Below are positions 3,890 to 18,150 of a stretch of DNA of 35,056 bases, one piece after another. The stretch is taken from NCBI GenBank assembly GCA_009392515.1, contig VFGE01000026.1, forward strand, positions 66,322-101,377. The letters are read 5' to 3'. The translations under genes and the position numbers were made by a program. This stretch comes from SAR202 cluster bacterium (lineage in GTDB: Bacteria; Chloroflexota; Dehalococcoidia; Lucifugimonadales; UBA6952). How positions within the stretch are numbered: position 1 is the stretch's first letter; each line of letters begins with the position of its first letter. Below the pieces are notes generated by a model that was given only the letters and a program-made list of their open reading frames with translations, had not been told where the DNA came from and did not search any database.

Positions 3890-4143
3890 AATTGAATAAC
3901 TAAATGCAATGAAGAGGATTAGTACATTTTTGGCTAGGTACAGAGAGCTGGAGTTGCTGAGAACCAGCACCAAAAGCGAGGATGGAATGGACCTTGGAGC
4001 AGTACTTCAGAACATTACAGTATGAAGTATCGGTTAAGCACCGTTATAAGCTTGATTAATCTGATTGATCAATGAGTGGCTATATAAGCAATTAGGGTGG
4101 CAACGCGGTTTCCCGTCCCTTGTAAAGGGGATGGGATTTTTTT
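3890..4143 (+). promoter_or_regulatory. T-box riboswitch, tryptophan-specific (TGG specifier)
   Basis: This untranslated leader has the marks of a T-box that reads tRNA charging. An AGAGAG motif lies in Stem I (3942-3947). The specifier context GAATGGACC has the tryptophan codon TGG at 3988-3990. A small stem CGGT-TAAGC-ACCG follows, then the T-box sequence AGGGTGGCAACGCGG at 4094-4108, then a terminator. The bulge TGGC (4098-4101) can pair with a tRNA ending GCCA, which fits the G discriminator usual for bacterial tRNA-Trp. Uncharged tRNA-Trp should stabilise the antiterminator and allow readthrough into trpS and the trp genes. It accounts for most of the 320 bases between the sortase and trpS. 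Confidence 0.93.
4112..4143 (+). terminator. Regulated intrinsic terminator of the Trp T-box
   Basis: CCCGTCCC (4112-4119) pairs with GGGATGGG (4128-4135) across a short loop and is followed by seven or eight T. The 5' arm overlaps the region that would pair in the antiterminator form. Confidence 0.9.
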
Positions 4144-4157
4144 ATGAAAGAGAGAAT

Positions 4158-5162
4158 ATGAAAAAGAGAATTTTAACTGGTATAAGACCAACAGGAAAGT
4201 TACATTTAGGACATTATGTGGGAGCCTTGGAAAATTGGATTCGCCTTCAAGAAGAGTACGATTGTTTTTTTCTCATCGCTGATTATCAAGCATTAGGTGA
4301 CCATATTGATGAAATGGAGAACATAAAAATAGCAGTTCGCGACGTAGTTTTAGACTGGTTAAGTGTAGGTCTAGATCCAATCAAATCTACATTTGTTGTA
4401 CAAAGTTATGTTCCGGAGCACGCTGAACTTGCTATGCTTCTTTCAATGCTGACCCCATTAGGAATGCTGGAACGAAACCCCACATTAAAATCAGAAAGAG
4501 AAAGAATATCAAATACAAGCTTATCAGTTGGGTTTTATACTTACCCAGTAAGTCAAGTTGCTGATATTCTTCTTCCTAAAGCTGATTTGGTCCCAGTTGG
4601 AGAAGATCAGTTGCCACATATTGAAATGACGAGAGAGATTGCTAGAAGGTTTAATAATAGATATGGAAATGTTTTTCCTGAGCCTGATAGTTTAGTTGGG
4701 CGAGTATCTCGTTTGTTGGGCACAGACGGACAATCTAAAATGAGTAAAAGTATAGGAAATGTTATTTATTTATCTGACGATCCTGATACTGTAAGTAAAA
4801 AAATTATGTCTATGTATACTGATCCTACTAGATTAAGAGCCACTGATCCAGGTCATGTTGAAGGGAATCCTGTCTTTCAATATCATGATGCTTTTAATAC
4901 TGATACAGCAGAAGTTAATGATCTTAAGGATCGTTATTTACAAGGTAAAGTGGGAGATGTTGAAGTTAAACAAAAACTCATATTGGCGATTAACAAATTT
5001 CTAGATCCAATAAGAGAAAGACGCTCCAAGTATGAAAATGATATAAATTTTGTTGATGAATGTATCAATGAGGGTTCAGCAAAAGGTAAAATAACTGCTG
5101 CAAAAACTATGTCGGAAGTTCGAGAAAAAATGGGTTTAAATTATGTATCATCCAACAATTGA
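4158..5162 (+). CDS. trpS: Tryptophanyl-tRNA synthetase
   Basis: The 334-residue class I aminoacyl-tRNA synthetase charges tRNA-Trp. Both ATP-binding signatures are visible: HLGH at residues 16-19 (the HIGH motif) within [13 protein letters not shown], and KMSKS at 194-198. Length is normal for bacterial TrpRS. The reading frame is open upstream to 4065, but that part lies inside the T-box terminator; the ATG at 4158 gives the usual N terminus MKKRILTG. A five-codon ORF at 4144-4161 overlaps the start. trpS is the first gene after the T-box, and trpE begins inside its last codons, so charging and synthesis of tryptophan appear to be controlled together. Confidence 0.95.
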
Positions 5163-6606
5163 AAGTGTAAAAAATATAGCAAATCAAGGTTATAATTTGA
5201 TTCCGATATATCGTGAAATCAATGCTGATCTTGATACTCCGGTTTCTGTATATTTAAAAATTGCAAGAGATAAATATTCCTTTTTATTAGAAAGTGTTGA
5301 AGGTGGGGAACGACAAGCTCGTTTTAGTTTTATTGGTTGTGACCCATACAAAGTTATTGAAACAGGGAAGGGAACAGATAATGGCGAAGTTGACCCTTTA
5401 AATTTGATTGAATCTGAATTAGGGCAATATAATGCCTATCCATCAGAAGATTTACCTCGATTTTTAGGCGGGGCAGTTGGTTACTTGTCTTATGATACTA
5501 TACGTTATTTTGAACCAAGAATTAATTTGCCAGATTTCGATCCCATTGGTATACCTGAGTCAATATTGCTGTTAACAGATACTGTTATTGTTTTTGACCA
5601 TATAAGACATGTTATTAAAGTTGTTTCACATGTTAGAACTGAAGGGGATATTCAAGAAAATTATAATGAAGCTGTAAACAAAATTGAAGTAATTATAAAA
5701 GATTTGTCTAAGTCGCTATCAGTTTATAATGATAATCATGATAAAAATCTTCAATTTGTCTCAGAAACAAAAGTTAATTTTGAATTACCAGAATATTCTA
5801 AAATTATTGAAAAATGTAGAGATTATATTATAGCTGGCGATGTGATTCAGGTTGTAGTTTCTAAAAGGACTTCCAAAACAACACAAGCTCATCCTTTCAA
5901 TATTTATCGATCATTGCGAAAATTAAATCCTTCACCATATATGTATTATCTTAATTTCGGTGAATTCAATATAATTGGAGCCTCCCCAGAGGCTTTAGTT
6001 AGAGTAGAAGATAGATATATCTATAGTTACCCATTAGCTGGAACAAGCCCTCGAGGTGATACGAAGGAACAAGACAATGAATTAGAAAAGAAGCTATTAG
6101 CAGATCAAAAAGAGAGAGCTGAACATATTATGTTAGTAGATTTAGCTCGTAACGATGTTGGAAGAGTAGCCCAAACAGGTTCTGTAGAGGTAGTAGACTT
6201 GATGAGAATAGTTAAATATTCTCATGTTATGCATATTGAATCAGAAGTTAGAGGAATATTAAGAGACGATTGTACGATTTATGATGCTCTTCGGTCTTGT
6301 CTCCCTGCGGGAACACTATCTGGAGCCCCCAAAGTTAGGGCAATGGAAATTATATATGAAATGGAAAATGCAAAACGTGGCCCATATGGTGGGGCAATTG
6401 GATATTTTAGTTTTAATGGGAATATGGATACTGCAATACCAATTCGAACAATAGTATATAAGGATAATACTGCATATATCCAAGCTGGTGGTGGAATAGT
6501 TTTTGATAGTGAACCTGAATCAGAATATCAAGAAACTATCAATAAAGCCTCTGCCCCCTTAAGAGCAATTGAACACGCTGATGAATTTGATCAATATACA
6601 AATTAA
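5143..6606 (+). CDS. trpE: Anthranilate synthase component I
   Basis: The 487-residue aminase subunit converts chorismate to anthranilate using ammonia supplied by TrpG. Conserved features of the chorismate-binding domain are visible: [47 protein letters not shown] and [17 protein letters not shown]. The start ATG at 5143 lies within trpS, a 20-base overlap that suggests translational coupling; no later in-frame ATG would keep the conserved N-terminal region. It is the second gene of the T-box-controlled operon. Confidence 0.95.
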
Positions 6607-6631
6607 TTATCCATTGTTGGAGATATAAATC

Positions 6632-7201
6632 ATGATAGCTTTAATTGATAACTATGATAGCTTTACATACAACTTATACCAATACATATTGGAGATAAGG
6701 CCTGATGTTCAAGTTTTCAGAAATGATAAAGTTTCTTTAGAAGATATAATTGAATTAGATCCTTCTCATCTCATCATATCTCCTGGCCCATGTACCCCGT
6801 TAGAAGCAGGTGTTTCTGTGGATATTATACAAGAATTATCACAACATATTCCTACCCTTGGTGTATGTTTAGGACATCAATGTATCGGTCATGTATTTGG
6901 GGCCAAGGTGTCTTATGCCGGAGAAATAAAACATGGTAAAACTTCTGCAATTCACCATGATGGAAATGGTCTTTTTAATGGCATTCCTTCACCTTTTCAA
7001 GGAATAAGATACCATTCACTTGCTGTGGAAAAAGATACAATACCAGAAGAATTAGTCGTTACTGCTTGGACAGAGAATGATTTAGTTATGGGGTTACGCC
7101 ACAAAAAATATCCTATTGAAGGAGTGCAGTTTCATCCAGAATCAATAATGACTGAATATGGTAAACAGATCATAAATAATTTTTTTGAAAAATATAAATG
7201 A
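6632..7201 (+). CDS. trpG: Anthranilate synthase component II (glutamine amidotransferase)
   Basis: The 189-residue class I glutamine amidotransferase delivers ammonia to TrpE. The catalytic triad is seen as Cys79 (GVCLGHQ), His168 and Glu170 (QFHPES), with the oxyanion region SPGPCTP near residue 50. Because many bacteria share this subunit with folate synthesis, it could also serve PabB, but its place between trpE and trpD argues for tryptophan. A GGAG lies about ten bases before the ATG. Confidence 0.95.
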   Translation: MIALIDNYDSFTYNLYQYILEIRPDVQVFRNDKVSLEDIIELDPSHLIISPGPCTPLEAGVSVDIIQELSQHIPTLGVCLGHQCIGHVFGAKVSYAGEIKHGKTSAIHHDGNGLFNGIPSPFQGIRYHSLAVEKDTIPEELVVTAWTENDLVMGLRHKKYPIEGVQFHPESIMTEYGKQIINNFFEKYK

Positions 7202-7222
7202 TTTAGTTAATGGAGAATAAAT

Positions 7223-8239
7223 ATGTTGAATAATAGTATAGAAAAACTCATCCTAGGCAAAGATTTAAGTATTGAAGAATCTAAAACTAGCATGGATTTT
7301 ATAATGGATGGGCAGGCTACTTCATCTCAAATCGCTGCTTTTTTAGTTTCTCTTAGAATCAAAGGGGAAACTGTAGAAGAAATAACAGGGATGGCTACAT
7401 CTATGCGTAATAATTCTTTAACAGTTCCAAATTCATCTTATTTAGTTGACACCTGTGGAACTGGAGGTGATGGATTTGGTACAATTAATGCTTCAACTAT
7501 TTCGGCGATAATAGCTGCATCTGGAGGGGTTAAAGTAGCGAAACATGGTAATAGAGCCGCTTCTAGTAAAAGTGGTAGCGCAGATGTTTTAGAAGGTCTC
7601 GGTGTAGTTATTGATTTGTCTCCTGATTTAGTAGCACGATCAATAGAAAAAACAAACTTTGGATTTATGTTTGCTCAAACTTTTCATCCTGCAATGAGAC
7701 ATGTTGGTCCAACTAGAAGAGAACTCGGTATAAGAACAGTGTTTAATTTTTTGGGGCCATTAACTAATCCTGCAAAAGCAAATGCTCAAGTCCTTGGGGT
7801 TTCTGATCCATCGATTGGAGTTAAAATGGCAAATGTACTCAAATCCTTTAATATTGAACACGCTTTAATAGTCCATGGTTTAGAGGGTTTAGATGAAATT
7901 TCTGTGTGTGGGCCTACTCAAATTTGGGAAGTTACAAAAGAAGGAATAAAAGATTATCAAGTTACTCCCGAAGAATTTGGAATGAAACGATACGACATTA
8001 AAGACCTTTTAGGGGGGGAAATTAATGACAATGTAAACATGTTTCGAGAAATAATTCAAGGCAATGGATCAGCTGTGGACTTTGTAGTTTTAAATGCTGC
8101 TTCAGTTTTATATGTTGGTAATAAAGTCGAATCTATTTCTGAAGGTGTTAACTTAGCCAGAGAGTTAATCGTAGACGGATTGGTAGTTTCAAAATTGGAA
8201 GAGATAATAGAAACAACTCAAAGTTTAAAATCTTTATAG
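7223..8239 (+). CDS. trpD: Anthranilate phosphoribosyltransferase
   Basis: The 338-residue enzyme transfers the phosphoribosyl group of PRPP to anthranilate. The glycine-rich PRPP loop DTCGTGGDG (about residues 76-84), the KHGNRAASSKSGSADVLE motif and the anthranilate-binding HPAMRHVGPTRRELG region are all present. TrpD is separate from TrpG here, not fused as in enteric bacteria. A GGAG precedes the ATG at 7223 with good spacing. Confidence 0.95.
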   Translation: MLNNSIEKLILGKDLSIEESKTSMDFIMDGQATSSQIAAFLVSLRIKGETVEEITGMATSMRNNSLTVPNSSYLVDTCGTGGDGFGTINASTISAIIAASGGVKVAKHGNRAASSKSGSADVLEGLGVVIDLSPDLVARSIEKTNFGFMFAQTFHPAMRHVGPTRRELGIRTVFNFLGPLTNPAKANAQVLGVSDPSIGVKMANVLKSFNIEHALIVHGLEGLDEISVCGPTQIWEVTKEGIKDYQVTPEEFGMKRYDIKDLLGGEINDNVNMFREIIQGNGSAVDFVVLNAASVLYVGNKVESISEGVNLARELIVDGLVVSKLEEIIETTQSLKSL

Positions 8240-8245
8240 GGATAG

Positions 8246-9052
8246 ATGATGGAAAAACCTTCTATATTAGAGAATATTATATTAGCCAAGGAAAAATATT
8301 TAGATAATCAGAAGCAAATTACTCCCATTGAATTGCTAATTCGAGATATTGAGCAAAATAATATCCCCAAAAACTTTTCAGGTTCACTTATGGGTGATAG
8401 TGTTATGCTTATTGCAGAAATGAAGAAAGCTTCACCTTCAAAAGGGATTATTTCTGAAAAATATGATCCTAAAGAAATAGCATTAAAATATTCAGAAGCT
8501 AATGTGGCAGCTATATCCATTTTAACAGATATAGATTTTTTTCAAGGGGATATTTCTCATCTTTCTGATGTTAGCTCTCTGCTAAAAACAACTAGTATTC
8601 CAATATTCCGCAAAGATTTTATCATCGACGAATATCAGATTTACGAATCTAGAAAGCATGGTGCTGACTCTTTGTTACTAATGGTGTCTGTTTTGGACCC
8701 ATTCAAGTTGAAGGAATTAATTGAATTATGCAATCAATTATGGATACAGCCTCTAGTGGAAATTCATAATAAAGAAGAATTACAAATAGCTTTAGACTCA
8801 GGTGCAGATATTATAGGTATAAATCATAGAAATCTACATGATTTTTCAATGGATATGAATTTAGTTGAAAAATTAATGCCAAAAATCCCTAACGGGAAAA
8901 TTGTAATTGCGGAGAGTGGTATTGATTCTTATGAGGATATTAAAAGAATGAAAAGTTTAGGTGTAAATGCTGTTTTAGTAGGGGAATCTATTATGCGTGC
9001 TAAAAATATAAGTATGAAGATTAATGAAATGATGGGAATAAATGAAAGTTAA
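8246..9052 (+). CDS. trpC: Indole-3-glycerol phosphate synthase
   Basis: The 268-residue TIM-barrel enzyme makes indole-3-glycerol phosphate from the ribulose intermediate. Conserved stretches are IAEMKKASPSKG (catalytic lysine region), FRKDFIIDEYQI, GINHRNL and ESGI near the C terminus. Two adjacent ATG codons (8246, 8249) could start translation; the upstream AGGG fits either. The gene begins six bases after trpD and overlaps trpF by 11 bases. Confidence 0.95.
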   Translation: MMEKPSILENIILAKEKYLDNQKQITPIELLIRDIEQNNIPKNFSGSLMGDSVMLIAEMKKASPSKGIISEKYDPKEIALKYSEANVAAISILTDIDFFQGDISHLSDVSSLLKTTSIPIFRKDFIIDEYQIYESRKHGADSLLLMVSVLDPFKLKELIELCNQLWIQPLVEIHNKEELQIALDSGADIIGINHRNLHDFSMDMNLVEKLMPKIPNGKIVIAESGIDSYEDIKRMKSLGVNAVLVGESIMRAKNISMKINEMMGINES

Positions 9053-9683
9053 AATTTGCGGTGTAAGAGATGTAAAATCTGCTTTAGTTTGCGAAAGTTT
9101 CTCTGCTGATTTTATTGGCCTGAATTTTGTTCCTAATGTACATAGAGAAATTGATATTGCATCAGCAATTGAAATTTCAAATTCTATGACCTTCATAAAT
9201 AAAGTGGGAGTATTTGCTGACCAACCTATAGAGTACGTTATATCCATAATTAATCAATGTGGTTTAGATTATGCTCAATTAAGTGGTAATGAAAGCCTAG
9301 AATATTGTATGCAGGTGGGGCTACCAATTATCAAATCACTTAAAATAGATACAAATTCAAATATTAAAACTATTAAGAGAAAGATTTTTCCAATAATAGA
9401 TAGTTTAATAAACAACAATGTGATACCGCTTATAGAATCATCTGTTCCTGGTTTTTATGGGGGGACTGGTACACAAATATCTTTAGATATTGCTAAAGAA
9501 ATTGCAGAAAACTTTGATATAATTCTTGCTGGTGGATTAACACCATTAAATGTCAAAAGTATGGTAGATTATATTAACCCTTGGGGTGTGGATGTTGCTA
9601 GTGGTGTCGAATCTGAGAAAAAGCAAACTCCAGATAAAATTATACAATTTATTTCAAATGCAAAGAATGGTGATAATGAATAA
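9042..9683 (+). CDS. trpF: Phosphoribosylanthranilate isomerase
   Basis: The 213-residue TIM-barrel isomerase carries the general base Cys6 in KICG and the phosphate-binding GGTG (141-143) and LAGGL motifs. The usual general-acid aspartate in the FLLD-type motif is replaced by glutamate: the sequence reads [10 protein letters not shown], with Glu132 at that position. A separate trpF gene, rather than a trpC-trpF fusion, is normal outside enteric bacteria. It overlaps trpC by 11 bases and trpB by 8 bases. Function is very likely kept, since Glu can also donate a proton, but the substitution is noted below. Confidence 0.9.
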
Positions 9684-10869
9684 GGATTCTAAAATATTAT
9701 GGCCAAATGATAAAGGTAGGTTTGGAGAGTTTGGAGGTAGATATGTACCTGAAACACTTATTCCAGCTCTTGATGAATTACTTGAATCATATGAAAAAAT
9801 TAAAACAGATAAGGGTTTTATCAAAGAGTTTTCTACATTATTAGAATATTTTGTTGGTCGACCAACTCCTTTGTATTTTGCTGAAAATCTAACCAAATAT
9901 TTTAAAGGACCAAAAATATATCTAAAAAGAGAAGATCTATCTCATACTGGCGCCCATAAAATCAACAATGCAATAGGTCAGGCACTTCTAGCAAAAAAAA
10001 TGGGAAAAACTCGTATAATCGCTGAGACTGGGGCTGGTCAACACGGAGTCGCAACAGCTACTGTTTGTGCGAAATTAGGTTTAGAATGCCATGTTTACAT
10101 GGGATCTATAGATATTGAAAGGCAAAATCCAAATGTTCGTAGAATGGAATTATTAGGGGCAAATATTATTTCAGTCAGTAGTGGAACCAAAACCCTCAAA
10201 GACGCTATAAATGAAGCAATACGAGATTGGGTTAGTAATGTAGATACCACACACTATTTAATTGGAAGTGCTATAGGCCCACATCCATATCCTGTTATCG
10301 TTCGTGATTTCCAGTCAGTAATTGGAGCAGAAGTCAGAGAGCAAAGTCTAAAACAATTAGGAACATTACCAAGTGCAGTTATAGCGTGTGTAGGAGGTGG
10401 CAGTAATGCAATTGGTATATTTTACCCTTTTATCAATGATTTAGATGTTAAATTAATTGGTGTTGAAGCTGGAGGTAAAGGTGAAAATACTGACGCTACT
10501 GCCGCAACATTAGTTAAAGGAACACCAGGGGTACTCCATGGGACATATACTTATTTATTACAGGATAATTATGGACAAATTCAAGAAACTCATAGCGTTT
10601 CAGCAGGTTTAGATTATCCGGGAGTAGGACCAGAACATGCATATTTGAAAGATACAGAACGAGCTAAATACGTTTCGGCTGATGATCAAATGGCTATTGA
10701 TGGATTCAAACTATTGTGTTCAACCGAAGGCATTATCCCTGCGTTAGAACCTGCACATGTTATAGGATATTTACCTCACATTATCAAGGATTTCTCATCC
10801 AAAGATATTATGGTTATAGGTCTAAGTGGTAGGGGGGATAAGGACCTCGATACTGTTTTATCTTTATAA
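9676..10869 (+). CDS. trpB: Tryptophan synthase beta chain
   Basis: The 397-residue PLP enzyme joins indole and serine. Lys95 in [10 protein letters not shown] binds the cofactor, Glu117 (AETGAGQHG) is the catalytic acid, and [10 protein letters not shown] binds the PLP phosphate. The sequence is of the standard TrpB1 type that normally works with TrpA. The frame is open upstream to 9586, but the ATG at 9676, overlapping the trpF stop, gives the usual N terminus and length. No trpA gene follows; 184 non-coding bases separate it from the next gene. Confidence 0.95.
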
Positions 10870-10974
10870 ACATTCCCTTATCTTATAGCTTTTTCTTATT
10901 GAATTATTTCAACTATGTTTAATTTATGAGTTTATTTTGCAAATCTTAGGAATGATTCTTATTCTCAATTATAA

Positions 10975-11005
10975 TTGACATTTACAATGAAGATTGGTAA
11001 TTAAT
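10975..11005 (+). promoter_or_regulatory. Possible promoter of the MBL-fold gene
   Basis: A perfect TTGACA lies at 10975-10980. The best -10 candidate, ATTAAT at 11000-11005, is weak and 19 bases away. The rest of the 184-base gap after trpB is AT-rich, with no clear terminator and no trace of trpA. Confidence 0.35.
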
Positions 11006-11053
11006 GAGACAACTTTATATGAAAATCCTTAAAGTGGAGGAGAAGGAGTACAT

Positions 11054-11743
11054 ATGTCTAGTAATGCAACAATTGGTCAAGTAGAAGTTACTCGATACAT
11101 TCAATCAACCGTTAAATTTAACTCAGGGAATACTACAATTTGGGTCGATCCATTTGGTTTAAACGATGATCTTATTGGAGGGGATAAAGCTGATATTATA
11201 CTTTTAACTCATGAACATGGTGACCACTTTAATTTAGATGCCATTAATGCTGTTTCTAAAGAAGGTACTATCTTGGTTTGTAACAATAGTGGTATTGAGC
11301 AAAAAATTAGAGGGAATGTTAGTAGTGAATTGATAGTTATGAAAGAAGGTGATAAAAATCTTGTCTCTGGAATAAATGTTGAGGCTGTTGCAGGGTACAA
11401 TGATTTCCATCCACGCAATAATGGCCATGATAGTTTTAATATTGGGTTTATATTTGAATTTGGTGGAGCTAGAATATTAAATGCTGGAGATACTGATTTA
11501 ATTGAAGAATTTGCTGCAATGTCACCATTAGATTTAGCATTACTACCAATCGGAAACGCTGGTTATACTATGGATGAGGCTGACGCTGCTAAGGCGGTAA
11601 ATGAAATGTTAAAGCCTGGAGCTGTTATTCCAGTACATTATGGATTTGCTACTGGAGGAGATCCAGAGAAATTCAAGTCATTAATTAATTCTGGAATTAA
11701 TGTAGAAATATTAGATCCATTAAATCCAATGAAAGCAGGATAA
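11054..11743 (+). CDS. MBL-fold metal-dependent hydrolase (UlaG-like/UPF0173 type)
   Basis: The 229-residue protein has the metallo-beta-lactamase fold: the metal motif HEHGDH at residues 53-58, a later histidine in the GYNDFHP region, the aspartate in NAGDTD and a C-terminal histidine in PVHYG. Its short single-domain form resembles the family containing L-ascorbate-6-phosphate lactonase and UPF0173 hydrolases. The exact substrate is not predictable. A strong GGAGGAGAAGGAG ribosome-binding region precedes the ATG. It sits behind the trp operon but has its own possible promoter and its own terminator. Confidence 0.85.
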   Translation: MSSNATIGQVEVTRYIQSTVKFNSGNTTIWVDPFGLNDDLIGGDKADIILLTHEHGDHFNLDAINAVSKEGTILVCNNSGIEQKIRGNVSSELIVMKEGDKNLVSGINVEAVAGYNDFHPRNNGHDSFNIGFIFEFGGARILNAGDTDLIEEFAAMSPLDLALLPIGNAGYTMDEADAAKAVNEMLKPGAVIPVHYGFATGGDPEKFKSLINSGINVEILDPLNPMKAG

Positions 11744-11750
11744 ATCAACT

Positions 11751-11783
11751 AAAAAGAGCCATAAATTTATGGCTCTTTTTTTT
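11751..11783. terminator. Bidirectional intrinsic terminator
   Basis: AAAAGAGCCATAAA and TTTATGGCTCTTTT form a perfect 14-base inverted repeat, with a T run on the plus strand and its mirror on the minus strand. It lies between the convergent ends of the MBL hydrolase gene and the MaoC-like gene and overlaps the latter's stop codon. Confidence 0.92.
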
Positions 11784-17909: not shown

Positions 17910-18150
17910 TTCACTGCTATGATTGGAAGTAGTAGGGAGATTAAGGCTAAATAGAGAGCTGACGGTAGCTGTAAGTCAGTAGCAAATCCTCCCGAACTCG
18001 TCCATGAGCGGCCAACTTGAAACGATAACATATTAGAGTTGGGGGTGAGCTCCTGAAGATTGCTCATAAAGAGTCTATTTCAATGAAGTAGGAAATAGGG
18101 TGGTAACGCGGGAATATTTGTCTCGTCCCTTATAAGGGGCGGGATTTTTT
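17910..18150 (+). promoter_or_regulatory. T-box riboswitch, leucine-specific (CTC specifier)
   Basis: The leader carries the AGAGAG Stem I motif (17953-17958). The specifier context CCCGAACTCGTCC holds the leucine codon CTC at 17997-17999. The T-box AGGGTGGTAACGCGG is at 18097-18111 and a terminator follows. The bulge TGGT (18101-18104) fits a tRNA ending ACCA, as for leucine tRNAs with discriminator A. Uncharged tRNA-Leu should promote readthrough into ilvBNC-leuACD. This fills the 390-base gap between the phosphoesterase and ilvB, apart from divergent promoters at its left end. Confidence 0.93.
18122..18150 (+). terminator. Regulated intrinsic terminator of the Leu T-box
   Basis: CTCGTCCCTT and AAGGGGCGGG form a hairpin with some G-T pairs, followed by TTTTTT and a further T-rich stretch. 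It lies just after the T-box sequence. Confidence 0.9.

Follow-up and report, generated by a model that had tools for sequence, protein, structure and literature searches.

Gram-positive bacteria have trp operons that are controlled by T-boxes. The genes for the two subunits of tryptophan synthase, trpA and trpB, are neighbours in five example genomes, which an excerpted source uses to illustrate how the partners of a complex are kept together (PMC6941341). A study of Sargasso Sea metagenome contigs describes, in the excerpted text, trpA on contigs that hold no further trp genes, trpB and trpA separated by an intervening gene, and trpA adjoined by aro genes (PMC2395257); both the detachment of trpA and its association with aro genes are already published.

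We analysed a stretch of 35,056 nucleotides (the window) from the genome of a SAR202 cluster bacterium (G000; order Lucifugimonadales, class Dehalococcoidia). The window contains a trp operon on the plus strand with the gene order trpS, E, G, D, C, F, B (4158–10869), downstream of a T-box leader (3900–4123). The initial annotation had described trpE, G, D, C, F and B in this order, as is borne out by the open reading frames (5143–10869, plus strand) and their family matches; trpS and the T-box leader at the start of the operon were absent from it. The first gene, trpS (4158–5162), encodes a tryptophan--tRNA ligase (TIGR00233, 313.6 bits, cut-off 176.75, with the score computed on a longer 365-aa frame); we adopted the ATG at 4158 as its start, and the TTG at 4065 given in the list of open reading frames falls within the T-box. 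Scores above the cut-off were obtained for trpE (5143–6606; TIGR00564, 565.6 bits, cut-off 517.7), trpG (6632–7201; TIGR00566, 238.5 bits, cut-off 121.05), trpD (7223–8239; TIGR01245, 423.2 bits, cut-off 199.05) and trpC (8246–9052; NF001377, 298.4 bits, cut-off 260). Since TIGR00566 covers both trpG and pabA, the identity of trpG was taken from its position in the operon. Position also identifies trpF (9042–9683), which scored 145.6 bits with NF002298 (1–210 of 213 aa), below the 215-bit cut-off. The trpB gene (9676–10869; 397 aa) starts with the ATG at 9676, its first 8 bases being shared with the end of trpF, and the listed GTG at 9586 lies upstream of this ATG. Its translation scored 615.9 bits with TIGR00263 (cut-off 392.45) and 171.1 bits with the TrpB2-type model TIGR01415, under the cut-off of 518.85, indicating that TrpB is of the standard TrpB1 type, as initially annotated.

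The 184 bases that follow trpB (10870–11053) contain no trpA, no trpA remnant and no terminator-like site. We searched positions 10800–11150 by lenient tblastn with the genome's own TrpA, and used 200 mononucleotide shuffles of the same region as a control. The best match in the real sequence scored 13.9 bits. All 200 shuffles gave matches, the best ten of which scored 18.5–21.2 bits; the E-value limits of the real and shuffled searches were unequal, and the comparison was made on bit scores. With scores under those of the best shuffles, a trpA remnant in the gap is ruled out, in agreement with the initial reading of this interval. The next gene (11054–11743, plus strand) scored 103 bits with NF001911; because this is below the 144-bit cut-off, we refer to it only as a relative of metal-dependent hydrolases. 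A terminator scan placed the terminator-like site nearest downstream of trpB at 11751–11780, past the hydrolase-like gene. A gene with 58% identity to the hydrolase-like gene also lies 3' of trpB in one relative (G030; locus L041, 2850–3539), the only such case among the trpB loci of 29 relatives, some of which are shortened.

A search of the whole genome identified a single TrpA, encoded on the minus strand of another contig (G000:C14:6944–7729; 261 aa, no internal stop). It matches PF00290 with an E-value of 1.7e-84 and scores at the equivalog level with TIGR00262 (279.8 bits, cut-off 102.35, profile positions 1–255 of 256). The initial annotation had proposed that trpA might be elsewhere, lost or replaced; the first of these options holds and the other two fall, so that the absence of trpA from the operon is that of an ordinary relocated gene and not a loss. 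The initial annotation had itself named a trpA elsewhere in the genome as the outcome that would lead to this reading. On C14, trpA belongs to a run of genes on one strand, consisting of trpA, an aroH-type chorismate mutase gene that begins 15 bases past trpA, and genes for DAHP synthase, ribF, tyrS, an aminotransferase whose type was not settled by models, and serA (phosphoglycerate dehydrogenase). Upstream of trpA, apt and a gene weakly resembling HesB run in the opposite direction.

Both subunits retain the catalytic residues that were examined. TrpA keeps catalytic positions E50 (in ELG) and D61 (ADG at 60), which we take to correspond to E49 and D60 of Salmonella TrpA, and TrpB keeps the lysine of GAHKINN and the glutamate of ETGAGQHG. 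Also present are D57 of TrpA and the lysine of TLKDA in TrpB, whose counterparts form an alpha-beta salt bridge in Salmonella; these are the two positions at which the interface was compared. We conclude, with a probability of roughly 0.96, that trpA was not lost, that it persists as an intact single copy elsewhere in the genome, and that its product most likely joins TrpB as the usual alpha-beta tryptophan synthase. TrpA made from the second locus would meet TrpB after translation to form the alpha-beta complex, in which TrpA would convert indole-glycerol phosphate to indole and TrpB would condense indole with serine. The subunits would then be supplied from two transcripts, with the Trp T-box only on the trpS-trpEGDCFB transcript.

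The genome contains one TrpB match at E 1e-30, and a search for a second TrpB found none. A match to a 398-aa PLP enzyme on contig C19 was considered as a second TrpB and rejected, as it scores as a threonine synthase.

The order sample consisted of 40 genomes: that of the window, one other of its genus, and 38 others. TrpA was found in 40/40 and a close TrpB in 39/40. In all 39 genomes with both, trpA is detached from trpB; the two genes are on different contigs in 28 genomes, and on the same contig in 11, at distances of between 42 kb and 1.4 Mb. We read the loci of the best-scoring 30 of the 40 trpA genes. All 30 are without trpB in the 0.8–1.5 kb upstream of trpA, and because this upstream sequence is present and free of trpB, contig breaks are not the cause of the split in these loci. 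The aroH gene lies just downstream of trpA in 29 of the best 30 loci, the exception being L022 (G003), where aroH was not found beside trpA.

These data bear on the suggestion that trpA was lost and that the cell takes up indole from its neighbours, with TrpB working alone. The lack of trpA 3' of trpB is what such a reading would predict; however, the same genome has an intact trpA, as do all 40 in the order sample, and the search for a TrpB2 in G000 found none. Indole salvage is thus unsupported for this genome, and the reading, which we consider exceedingly improbable, is refuted unless C14 is foreign. The assembly is a 62-contig draft with an estimated contamination of 2.84%, which leaves some room for trpA on C14 being a contaminant. 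Against this, G001, from the same genus, carries the two loci as well, and its gene order agrees wherever it was read: its trpA block is 90.3% identical in DNA to that of G000 over 16.2 kb, and its trp operon stretch is 85.7% identical to the window over 10.6 kb, on a contig that stops inside trpB. Because the second genome of the genus has a matching block, a foreign origin of C14 is unlikely; moreover, genomes of the order sample have trpA detached as a rule. We therefore regard contamination as very improbable. The GC content, 0.35 for the window and 0.33 for the trpA contig, likewise fits a single organism.

We also examined the control regions. The leader of the trp operon matches the T-box family (Rfam RF00230) with 131 bits, over the gathering score of 93, and has a terminator-like stem with a T run at 4111–4136 (terminator scan) and a UGG (Trp) specifier ahead of trpS and the trp genes, identifying it as a T-box. 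The specifier was taken from the alignment as the codon following GAA, which we assume to be the rule. Two T-boxes were found in G000, both within the window; the second (17910–18133) has a CUC (Leu) specifier and precedes ilvB, ilvN, ilvC and leuA. A T-box ahead of trpA was considered and rejected: there is none before trpA in G000 or in L061–L062, and in the 20 of 30 order trpA loci scanned at the gathering score, no T-box reads into trpA and the one found points away. Similarly, at least 105 T-boxes are listed for the 40 genomes of the order; three of them lie up to 3 kb upstream of trpA, all on the opposite strand, and no listed T-box at this distance reads into trpA. In one genome (G019), the gene behind the T-box near trpA resembles acetolactate synthase by eye. 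For trpB, at least 7/39 order genes have a same-strand T-box within 12 kb upstream, and for 32/39 none was seen within 12 kb among the T-boxes listed, in a scan limited by contig breaks and an E-value of 0.001.

Six TrpB2-like matches, with 35–40% identity to TrpB, were present in relatives from the order. Five of these have a same-strand T-box 265–633 bases upstream (G030:C25, G013:C2, G022:C1, G038:C136 and G025:C17), a count that excludes matches of 30% and less and in which most members were classed without a TrpB2-model score. These T-boxes would fit tryptophan-responsive control of TrpB2.

The distribution of T-boxes raises the tentative possibility, which we rate as rather unlikely, that the split is adaptive, with trpA placed in another operon so as to put the alpha subunit under a control separate from that of the remaining pathway. 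Consistent with this idea, a Trp T-box precedes trpS-trpEGDCFB and none precedes trpA, the listed T-boxes of the order can be found upstream of trpB and not reading into trpA, and the linkage of trpA to aroH is widespread. On the other hand, shared ancestry by itself accounts for the conservation, and most trpB genes of the order likewise have no listed T-box within 12 kb. An adaptive split is compatible with our preferred explanation, that of an intact, relocated trpA whose product joins TrpB, and both can hold. A fuller version of the idea, which seems unlikely to us, is that selection keeps the subunits in two operons throughout the order, with TrpB under Trp-tRNA sensing and TrpA with chorismate mutase and DAHP synthase; two signals would then set the balance of the subunits, and thereby free indole or flow at the chorismate branch point.

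We extended the comparison to 119 genomes sampled from the class, of which 105 have trpA at E 1e-30. Three arrangements were observed: trpB and trpA adjacent; trpB, usually a CPBP-type protease gene, trpA and aroH in succession (gap); and trpA-aroH away from trpB (detached). Measured between profile matches and not gene ends, trpA and trpB are within 200 bases in 34 of the 105 genomes, 0.2–2.5 kb apart in 25, and further apart or on another contig in 39; the other 7 have no TrpB1 match. The distance from trpA to an aroH gene is no more than 600 bases in 0/34, 21/25, 36/39 and 6/7 of these groups, respectively. Two of the 39 far cases (G049 and G151) lie at contig ends, and trpB-like sequence immediately precedes their trpA; in G136, trpA comes before trpE.

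The proteins encoded between trpB and trpA in the gap arrangement are CPBP/Rce1-like membrane proteases in 6/6 cases scored. Using a profile built from these six proteins, we found a CPBP gene in 18/21 gap, 46/71 detached and 0/33 adjacent loci; where found, it immediately precedes trpA, in the same orientation. For this count and for the tree described below, G151 was relabelled as adjacent and G069 as gap (the copy used has the gap), and the detached label also covers G049 plus six genomes that lack a TrpB1 match. A CPBP gene beside trpA is absent from both genomes of the window's genus (G000 and G001). Loci in which a CPBP/Rce1-like gene immediately precedes trpA, often with trpB on its other side, include L153–L158, L160–L162, L164 and those of other class relatives.

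A simple path to the detached state would be an insertion between trpB and trpA together with joining to aroH, followed by separation; the direction of this path is our suggestion, and the tree does not decide it. In a TrpA tree of 125 rows, 31/33 adjacent-type genes fall in one 34-row branch (SH-aLRT 99). Many inner branches are weak (55/122 drawn open), and the starred branches require no fewer than three changes of label for the adjacent type; for these reasons we do not claim a single origin of the split. The tree lacks 9 of the 40 order trpA genes, and the class rows outside it are G110, G124, G139 and G153 (family already represented), the fragments G113, G123 and G085, and one of the two G069 trpA copies.

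Fourteen class genomes have no trpA at E 1e-30, and six of these (G080, G086, G090, G101, G148 and G149) have no TrpB match better than ~1e-50, only a TrpB2-level match (1e-42 to 1e-50). Four of the six are 95–99% complete. They are possible tryptophan auxotrophs that keep TrpB2, and the question of indole or tryptophan salvage suits these six genomes and not that of the window.

Like the Gram-positive operons, the operon described here has a T-box with a Trp specifier upstream of the trp genes; unlike the Gram-positive T-box trp operons, it is headed by trpS and trpA lies outside it. The case of the window adds to the known examples of dispersed trp genes and recurs throughout the order sample. 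It warns against inferring the loss of a pathway from a single locus, and is otherwise an ordinary operon rearrangement. The aro gene beside trpA in the Sargasso Sea split operons is given, in the excerpted text, as DAHP synthase in three cases, for which that text names no organisms (PMC2395257), whereas here the neighbour of trpA is an aroH-type chorismate mutase gene, followed by that for DAHP synthase, and the arrangement is traced through samples of one order and its class. The enzymes are the same as those of the adjacent pair in the excerpt of PMC6941341, but their genes are split here in every order genome that has both, providing an example of a gene pair for complex partners that stays apart across the order sample, even though trpA and trpB are a textbook pair of genes kept together.
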